64,000 nucleotides of DNA. It comes from Streptomyces sp. LX-29. GTDB taxonomy: Bacteria; Actinomycetota; Actinomycetes; Streptomycetales; Streptomycetaceae. The stretch is from NCBI RefSeq assembly GCF_029541745.1, contig NZ_CP089746.1, forward strand, positions 5,651,559 to 5,715,558, given 5' to 3'. The notes beneath the pieces were generated by a model. It did not search any database and was not told the origin of the DNA. It worked only from the letters and a program-made list of their open reading frames with translations. Positions 56,945 to 60,093 of the stretch are shown here, one piece after another. How positions within the stretch are numbered: position 1 is the first letter of the stretch; each line of letters begins with the position of its first letter. A program made the translations under genes and the position numbers.

Positions 56945-57133
56945 TCACCGGCCTACCGGCCCGGGGGGAGCGGCGGGTGCGCCGTCGGCCTCGGCGTCAC
57001 ACCTCGTCGAGCAGCCGCTTCGCCTGCGCTCTGCCAGCAGCAGCCACCGCCCCTCGCCAGCCGCGTCCTTGACCACCGACAGGCTCCCCTCGTGGTGCCG
57101 GCCTCCATGTCGACAGGTCAGGTAGTGGTCCAT
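56945..57133 (-). pseudogene. Small hypothetical ORF, possibly frameshifted
   Basis: The ATG at 57133 has a strong site, GAGGGGGA, 7 nt upstream. It encodes MDHYLTCRHGGRHHEGSLSV and continues to GRWLLLAER, then becomes unlike a normal protein (RRRSGCSTRC). In the next frame the same bases read AKRLLDEV followed by TGA (around 57001-57025), a much more natural end, so one base may have been lost. The open frame runs on to 56945. A short real protein with a recent frameshift is my reading; no family is recognised. Confidence 0.35.
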
Positions 57134-57421
57134 CAGCCCATCCCCCTCTTGTTGGCCGCGGGCCGCACGGTCTACGCCTGCCCGCGCTGTGCCCCGCACT
57201 TCCCGAGGCGACTCGACGTGAAGGAAGCGCGGGCTACGGCACGCGCCGGCAAGCCGGTCGGCCGCCCCTGGACCGGGTGGTTTCGGGGGGCCGCGGAGCT
57301 GATCCTCTCGAGCTGGCGGCCCGTTCACCCCGTCGAGACGGGGTTCGAGAACCGCCACGGGGTAGCCACTTCGGGTCGAACCACAGACAGGAGGGCACCG
57401 AATGATCCTCTCGAACTGTGA
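57107..57421 (+). CDS. Hypothetical small protein with CPRC motif
   Basis: The frame reads MSTGQVVVHQPIPLLLAAGR then TVYACPRCAPHFPRRLDVKEARATARAG, with a CxxC that could bind zinc. Third codon positions are GC-rich for the first 50 residues; the C-terminal half looks less protein-like. It is divergent from the small ORF at 57133 with a 27-bp overlap of 5' ends. The start is uncertain (GTG 57125 is an alternative). No family recognised. Confidence 0.3.
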   Translation: MSTGQVVVHQPIPLLLAAGRTVYACPRCAPHFPRRLDVKEARATARAGKPVGRPWTGWFRGAAELILSSWRPVHPVETGFENRHGVATSGRTTDRRAPNDPLEL

Positions 57422-58827: not shown

Positions 58828-58863
58828 GCCGTACCCCTCGACCGCTCCCCTCCAGCAGCGAAA

Positions 58864-58893
58864 GAGCCCCGCACCGATCTTGGTACGGGGCTC
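58864..58893 (-). terminator. Hairpin next to the duplicated tRNA-Val 3' half
   Basis: GAGCCCCG and CGGGGCTC with an inner ACC/GGT pair; the minus strand continues into TTTCGC. Its distance from the tRNA-half copy (20 bp) suggests it was the original tRNA-Val terminator. It also lies 36 bp after the MazG-like gene. Confidence 0.65.
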
Positions 58894-58910
58894 CGTCGCC
58901 GGTCAGGCAT

Positions 58911-58954
58911 GGTGGGCACAGACGGATTTGAACCGCCGACATCTGCTTGGTAAG
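58911..58954 (-). repeat. Duplicated 3' half of tRNA-Val (putative att site)
   Basis: Bases 58911-58948 are identical to 60020-60057, and the match continues to 58954 with one mismatch. It covers the tRNA from the anticodon loop to the discriminator base and stops there. This is the usual att core left by tyrosine-recombinase elements that integrate into a tRNA gene. Confidence 0.8.
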
Positions 58955-59605
58955 CCTGGTGGTGATCTCCGCGGTGTGTCTGCTGGTCGCCAGGCAGAGG
59001 GCCGACTCAGCGTGTCTTGGGGTGCCGGCACCGATGGACGCCCTGGGTGACCGCGGCTGACCGTCCGTTCTGGCACGCATCTGGCACGCTGCGCCAGGGG
59101 GTGGAGTTCGCTGCTGCCCACTGTCCAGGACGAGCCATGGCAGGGCCGCAACCGGTGTCTGGCTGCTTGGCACACACGCAGGCCCTCCAACTGTGTTGGT
59201 GGGTGGCCTGGCTGCGTGCAGGGACGTGCCTACGGGAAGGGCTCACCACACGCTCTCGTCTGAATGACGGTGAACGGGCCTGAACGAGACGGCCGCGCTC
59301 CTCACCGTCGACACCGGAGACGGCCCTCGCCGGGCAGCCAAGCCACCGTCGCCCGTGGAGCTAAGCTGCCCCGTGTCGCACCGTACGCATGCCTGAGGCG
59401 GGCCCCTGTGCGTCCTCGAGCGGGAAGGTTTCGTCTTCCCCGAAGTCCGCGGCCTGGAAGGGGTTTGTCGTTGGAGGCGGCGATGCGGCCGAACAGCGGG
59501 GTTGCCCTTCCAGAGCGGAAAACAGCGACGTCAGATCGATGAGAGGTCTCCCTTTCGTTGCAGGTCCCTGAAGGGGCCTGGCGTGCCGTGATCGGGCACA
59601 GTGGT
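58955..59605. other. Putative remnant of an integrated element, no clear gene
   Basis: This stretch lies between the duplicated tRNA half and the small KOW-like gene. ORFs here are short, mixed in frame and unlike known proteins. Direct CTGGCACG repeats occur near 59078-59096. Composition is a little less GC-rich than the flanks. No integrase can be recognised. Confidence 0.5.
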
Positions 59606-59827
59606 CTACAGCTTGGTCATCTTGGCGTACGGGCTCAAGATCCGCATTGGCGCCGAGCCGAAATCCACGAGCGCCGCGATTCCCTCCTCGATGCCGATCA
59701 CCCGGCCGAGGCCGTACATGTCATGTGTGACCTGGTCGCCCAGAGCGAAGTCCTTGGGAACCGGTGTGACCGGGGCCTTGAAGGGGCTGGTGGGCAAATG
59801 ACGCTTCGGTGCAGCAGGCTTAGTCAT
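59606..59827 (-). CDS. Small CarD/KOW-like protein, unknown function
   Basis: The 73-residue protein has KDFALGDQVTHDMYGLGRVI then GIEEGIAALVDFGSAPMRI, a beta-barrel pattern like the CarD/TRCF or UvrD C-terminal domain (GDxVxHxxYGxGxVxxxxG). Such domains bind RNA polymerase. It begins with a basic Lys/Pro tail. The ATG lies 7 nt after CATACT, so the mRNA may be leaderless; GAGGACA could also serve as a ribosome site. It lies inside the interval bounded by the tRNA-Val repeats. Confidence 0.68.
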   Translation of the reverse strand: MTKPAAPKRHLPTSPFKAPVTPVPKDFALGDQVTHDMYGLGRVIGIEEGIAALVDFGSAPMRILSPYAKMTKL

Positions 59828-59961
59828 TGTCCTCAGTATGCGCCTACGTGTGTCCCGTTCGCTGTGGCCGCCGGTACAGACCCGGTACGGACAGCCCGAA
59901 GGCCGTTCTGGGACGTAAGTGGCACGGGGCCTCGGCGCAGTTCCCCGAGCCGAAAAAGATC

Positions 59962-60003
59962 AAGGCCCAGGTAACTGGTTTCACACCGGTTGACCTGGGC
60001 CTT
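59962..60003 (-). terminator. Intrinsic terminator downstream of tRNA-Val
   Basis: AAGGCCCAGGT pairs with ACCTGGGCCTT, and AACTGGT pairs with ACCGGTT inside, around TTCAC. On the minus strand it is followed by GATCTTTTTCGG. It starts 19 bp after the tRNA 3' end. Confidence 0.82.
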
Positions 60004-60021
60004 TGCCGTGTTCGGCGAGGG

Positions 60022-60093
60022 TGGGCACAGACGGATTTGAACCGCCGACATCTGCTTTGTAAGAGCAGCGCTCTACCGCTGAGCTATGCGCCC
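60022..60093 (-). tRNA. tRNA-Val (anticodon UAC)
   Basis: Seventy-two bases fold as a cloverleaf. The acceptor stem pairs GGGCGCA with TGTGCCC, the anticodon arm is CTGCT-CTTACAA-AGCAG with anticodon UAC, and the T arm holds GGTTCAAATCC. The discriminator is A and CCA is not encoded. The 3' half is duplicated at 58911-58954, so this gene was an integration target that was rebuilt. Confidence 0.95.

Follow-up and report, generated by a model that had tools for sequence, protein, structure and literature searches.

Ends of a probable decayed pSAM2-like element in the 3' half of a Streptomyces tRNA-Val(UAC) gene

The gene for tRNA-Val(UAC) in the window, by which we mean the whole stretch of 64,000 nucleotides analysed here from an 8.23-Mb, single-contig Streptomyces chromosome, carries in its 3' half what we take, with a probability of about 0.94, to be a decayed pSAM2-like element of the AICE type. 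A previous reading of the DNA, made without database searches, had described the locus as the footprint of an integrated element, either decayed or unusually small, and the first of these options agrees well with our results, as the two ends of a known family of elements and the last integrase codons have been kept. According to the scenario that we propose, a pSAM2-like AICE with a tyrosine integrase of the family found in the Streptomyces locus L011 would have entered the tRNA 3' half site-specifically, the 3' end of the tRNA would have been rebuilt at integration by a copy and a terminator carried by the element, and the old 3' half, together with the old terminator, would have come to lie at the opposite end of the element. 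Decay would have removed every element gene except for the last three codons and the stop of int, and a 0.6-kb cassette comprising a KOW gene and a second short ORF (ORF2), known from unrelated places in other Streptomyces, would have ended up inside; the order in which the element decayed and the cassette arrived is one that we infer. The remainder would be an interval of 1109 bp in which the two att cores and the arm-like repeats persist, in structure of the cis-mobilizable (CIME-like) kind. Its features are listed in Table 1.

Table 1. Features of the tRNA-Val(UAC) locus, in window coordinates
Feature	Position	Strand	Basis
Terminator hairpin, trailing the tRNA before integration	58863-58894	-	-33.7 kcal/mol, z -6.2
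tRNA 3'-half copy, attR core	58911-58954	-	43/44 identical; BLAST
Left element end: GTAAGCCTGG junction, spacer, arm-type-like repeats	58955-59093	+	matches other left ends
KOW + ORF2 cassette, approximate extent	59290-59893	-	similarity edges vs unrelated Streptomyces loci
ORF2, second conserved short ORF (PLIDLTSLFSALEG..)	59361-59546	-	kept frame, conservation profile
KOW/Tudor gene (UvrD1 C-terminal-domain-like), stand-alone, 73 aa; cargo	59606-59827	-	
Last integrase codons, overlapping right arm-like repeat TCTGGGACGTAAGTGGCACG	59907-59926	+	L011 integrase end
Element-borne terminator AAGGCCCAGGT..ACCTGGGCCTT, now ending the tRNA transcript	59962-60003	-	fold
tRNA-Val(UAC), intact; 3' half 60020-60063, attL core	60020-60093	-	ARAGORN, Rfam RF00005, repeat

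The repeat, its terminators and the site before integration

The direct repeat comprises 44 nt, of which 38 are identical, followed by one mismatch and five further identical positions, and its E-value of 1.7e-16 (BLAST, within the locus) means that it is not due to chance. Direct comparison confirmed the pattern of identities given by the sequence-only reading, with a small correction: the repeat, said to run from the anticodon loop to the discriminator, includes the anticodon and extends 2 nt beyond the discriminator. A search allowing up to two mismatches revealed no further copies of the core elsewhere in the window genome.

The copy and the intact tRNA had been said to be placed each next to its own terminator, and both terminators indeed fold as minus-strand hairpins. 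The hairpin behind the intact tRNA (-38 kcal/mol for the folded stretch, z -5.8) has been found also at the integrase-proximal end in L011, L027, L039, L041, L064 and L098. The sequence adjacent to the copy (gagccccg..cggggctc..gtcaggc) immediately follows an intact tRNA-Val in L016 (a different Streptomyces) and in L066 (S. coffeae), with 84-85% identity to the copy-side flank over about 110 bp, and partial matches to the copy-side terminator are present in L028, L032, L042 and L053. It follows from the order in L016 and L066 that the copy is the former end of the tRNA, and that the intact tRNA acquired its present 3' half and terminator later, in agreement with the earlier proposal that the element had brought them. 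The arrangement in L016 and L066 is that of the site before integration; the empty tRNA-Val site, proposed earlier as a check, thus exists in these other species. The older, copy-side terminator could itself stem from an earlier element; in L066 an unrelated integrase is located about 0.4 kb from it.

A bare direct repeat would look identical if a chromosomal piece with the tRNA 3' half had simply been duplicated in tandem, with no integrase involved. We find such an origin hardly credible, as the DNA between the repeats consists of the left and right ends of the element family and the integrase stop codons, and not of chromosomal flank, and as the pre-integration arrangement in other genomes contradicts it.

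Element ends and their complete relatives

The left end resembles those at tRNA-Val in L011, L089, L092 and L102, with which it has in common the GTAAGCCTGG junction that follows the core and, some 100 bp deeper into the element, the motifs TGACCG..TGACCG and CTGGCACG..CTGGCACG (in the window, two copies of TGACCG and two of CTGGCACG at 59048-59088). The identity amounts to 70-71% between 58910-59093 and the left ends of L089 and L092, and over shorter stretches to 98% in L011 and 90-91% in L102. The right end (59907-60019) can be aligned to the stretch from the integrase stop to the tRNA in L011, L039, L041, L064, L089 and others, and the match begins at the stop codon of the integrase. The first twelve nucleotides (59907-59918) read TCT GGG ACG TAA, or S-G-T-stop, which are the last three codons and the stop of the integrase; in L011 its C-terminus is ..GLDGPSGT followed by the stop (DNA CATCTGGCACGTAAGTGGCACG; the window counterpart is GTTCTGGGACGTAAGTGGCACG). 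The arm-like repeats at both ends are putative arm sites of the integrase. Beyond these last codons, tblastn searches with two integrases of the family detected no integrase remains above chance in the interval. The previous statement that there is no recognisable integrase between the copies therefore holds in that none is intact, with the final three codons and the stop remaining, and because of this reduction the assignment to the family is based on the sequences of the ends.

The complete relative in L011 exhibits two identical cores 17.1 kb apart at the same tRNA and encodes a tyrosine integrase (PF00589, E 1.4e-22), RepSA (PF20199, E 3.9e-147), an FtsK/SpoIIIE-type (TraB-like) translocator and a GntR-UTRA regulator, a gene set that includes the AICE modules listed in PMC3218068. 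The search for larger elements with the same att sequence, which had been recommended on the basis of the repeat, yielded elements of 13-17 kb in other species. With the pSAM2-type AICEs, represented by AICE03 elements that have 46-nt repeats and reside in a tRNA-Val gene (PMC9513070, where accretion at a tRNA-Arg site is also described), the window locus shares the tRNA 3'-end target (repeats of 44 vs 46 nt), a tyrosine integrase gene ending at the att side and an element-borne terminator, but it differs from them in that only the ends are left and the interval is devoid of integrase, replication and transfer genes. Insertion of AICEs into tRNA-Val is already known, and the present locus is ordinary in kind. 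As regards the features that define AICEs, we found site-specific integration with direct repeats at the tRNA 3' end, and in the interval no intact tyrosine or serine integrase, no replication gene and no FtsK/TraB-type transfer gene. The listed ORFs of the interval are the KOW gene and short ones of up to about 140 codons, so that a replication gene (RepSA, RepAM or Prim-Pol) would not fit.

Cis-mobilizable elements (CIMEs) have lost their integration and transfer genes and kept attL and attR (PMC5704250). The interval in the window fits this description by structure, with attL and attR and no recombinase or transfer genes, but it lacks a helper element in tandem, and the structure in L010, a sister genome of the same species, no longer corresponds to a CIME, attR having been lost. 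The retention of both cores in the window, with arm-like repeats on either side, and the frequent occurrence of elements of the same family at tRNA-Val of other species would also be compatible with a tiny working element, i.e. a 1.1-kb interval with its KOW cassette that is still moved in trans by related integrases. However, L010 lacks one core and one arm, and the nearest integrase in the window genome shows no more than 49% identity and is located at tRNA-Gly, with a core that differs accordingly; we therefore consider a working element improbable and prefer the decayed one.

This integrase (4,028,815-4,029,921; the identity refers to the L011 integrase) belongs to an element of about 21 kb at tRNA-Gly(CCC), extending over about 4,008,800-4,030,109 of the window genome and characterized by the same end architecture: its left copy is near 4,008,800, the left arm motif recurs at 4,008,957 and the tRNA is located at 4,030,036. 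The left end of this element is matched by that of the tRNA-Val interval as well, and tblastn searches of this element found no homologues of the RepSA or TraB of L011. In another region of the genome, three copies of the tRNA-Ser(GGA) 3' end are situated within 18 kb (3,579,189; 3,595,796; 3,597,070), with weak integrase matches beside them near 3,579,353-3,580,285; they are a probable accretion of elements.

The KOW/ORF2 cassette

The C-terminal Tudor/KOW domain of UvrD1 binds RNA polymerase. The cargo protein, 73 aa long, shows a match to that domain (PDB 9dqs, E 3.1e-6; a match to Pfam CarD_TRCF_RID is below the curated cut-off), but it is free-standing, with an N-terminus of its own, and the helicase gene is elsewhere in the genome. 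Within the genomes, a second, weaker KOW match falls in an ORF of about 830 codons, which we read as the UvrD1 helicase itself. The frame of ORF2 and its nearby stop are kept in most of the 15 species inspected, and an ATG start is found neither in the window nor in most species (PLIDLTSLFSALEGQ..FGEDETFPLEDAQ..).

The small KOW-like gene noticed between the two copies is thus real, but it is not a gene of the element: it is part of a cassette of about 0.6 kb that occurs in most Streptomyces, about once per genome and with no fixed location, and that is about 75-86% identical between many species, whereas in almost all pairs its flanks are unrelated. At 8 of about 50 loci (the window, L010, L108, L121, L124, L135, L145 and L151) the cassette follows a same-strand tRNA at a distance of 146-320 bp, the tRNAs being Val(UAC), Pro(CGG), Arg(CCG), Arg(UCU), Ser(GGA) and Arg(ACG). 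Since the site is common to the window and L010, and likewise to L135 and L145, these amount to six independent placements; by a rough estimate, with some 80 tRNA genes per genome, well under one would be expected by chance. In L120 the cassette is located behind a tRNA-Ser 3'-half copy, in L106, L116 and L118 a left-arm motif of the tRNA-Val element family lies just upstream of it, and in S. litmocidini (L076) it is flanked, again, by tRNA-Val on one side and an old tRNA-Val copy, now degenerate, on the other. Cassette and degenerate copy are accompanied by a transposase-like stretch in this genome, all three within the 5.4 kb that follow tRNA-Val (L076, 3465-8976).

Such a distribution behind six different tRNAs could be expected of a cassette that is itself mobile and targets tRNA 3' ends, the element ends in the window being incidental. 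Nevertheless, no second flanking att copy accompanies the other tRNA-adjacent cassettes: none was detected within the fetched flanks, nor, by a genome-wide search, near the cassette at tRNA-Pro, and at the tRNA-Ser of G097 a second core is located 11.5 kb off, with the cassette outside the pair. Besides, the att core and arms of the window are those of an integrase family that is complete elsewhere without any KOW gene, and we judge it very unlikely that the cassette is itself such a mobile unit, with incidental element ends around it.

Essentially no integrase, rep or tra genes were found within 9 kb of the other KOW loci. The cassette had no match among phages and matched two records of a plasmid collection, one of which is a chromosome-sized replicon. 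A clean empty cassette site with target duplication was not found, the cassettes being located at synteny breakpoints. KOW as a standard gene of tRNA-Val elements was considered and rejected, as it is absent in L011, L012, L015, L019, L033 and others. Tentatively, and with more doubt than conviction, KOW/ORF2 might be viewed as a nomadic two-gene unit that prefers sites directly behind tRNAs, perhaps riding element ends. The cassette is the only mildly surprising part of the locus, and it is worth studying in its own right, since genes are rarely conserved while their position is not.

Stages of decay at the tRNA-Val hotspot

Among the 75 Streptomyces loci in which tRNA-Val adjoined the anchor gene (the genomes searched being mostly one per species), about 20 carry an integrase or its remnant within 1.5 kb of tRNA-Val, which makes this site a hotspot. 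A second copy of the tRNA-Val 3' half is present in 8 of the 75, at a distance of 1.7-8.8 kb within the fetched flank, and a second integrase family (int33) has been found at the same tRNA-Val in L012, L019, L033 and others. The intervals between 3'-half copies in L077 (6365-8063) and L089 (6434-8763), of 1.7 and 2.3 kb, look like tandem accretions, because the copy is flanked by the right end of another element. Integrase remnants intermediate in length, of about 205 aa in L089 and about 20-46 aa in L055, L093 and L102, are present at the same tRNA and represent other stages of decay.

The genome L010 shares the interval of the window but lacks about 214 bp (58911-59124), which correspond to the copy and the left arms. 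The decay is therefore most likely older than the split of the two strains, and L010 most likely lost its att site after it. No full element that could be the direct ancestor was found at tRNA-Val in the same species, for which only L010, with the same decayed interval, was available. An old, fixed arrangement, with both copies and the interval conserved in all related genomes, had been named as the finding that would speak against a footprint; we found the short interval in no genome other than L010, and there without the copy. A recent gene-conversion patch between the window and L010 (98.5-100% identity over 59401-60000 vs about 97% around it) was also considered and is suggestive at most. 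About 300 bp of the window at 57001-57306 are absent from L010.

Taken together, the tRNA-Val hotspot presents stages that lead from a complete element, through a partial integrase, to ends only, and then to the loss of one att site, and it illustrates that a tRNA is able to retain a terminator donated by an element that has vanished.
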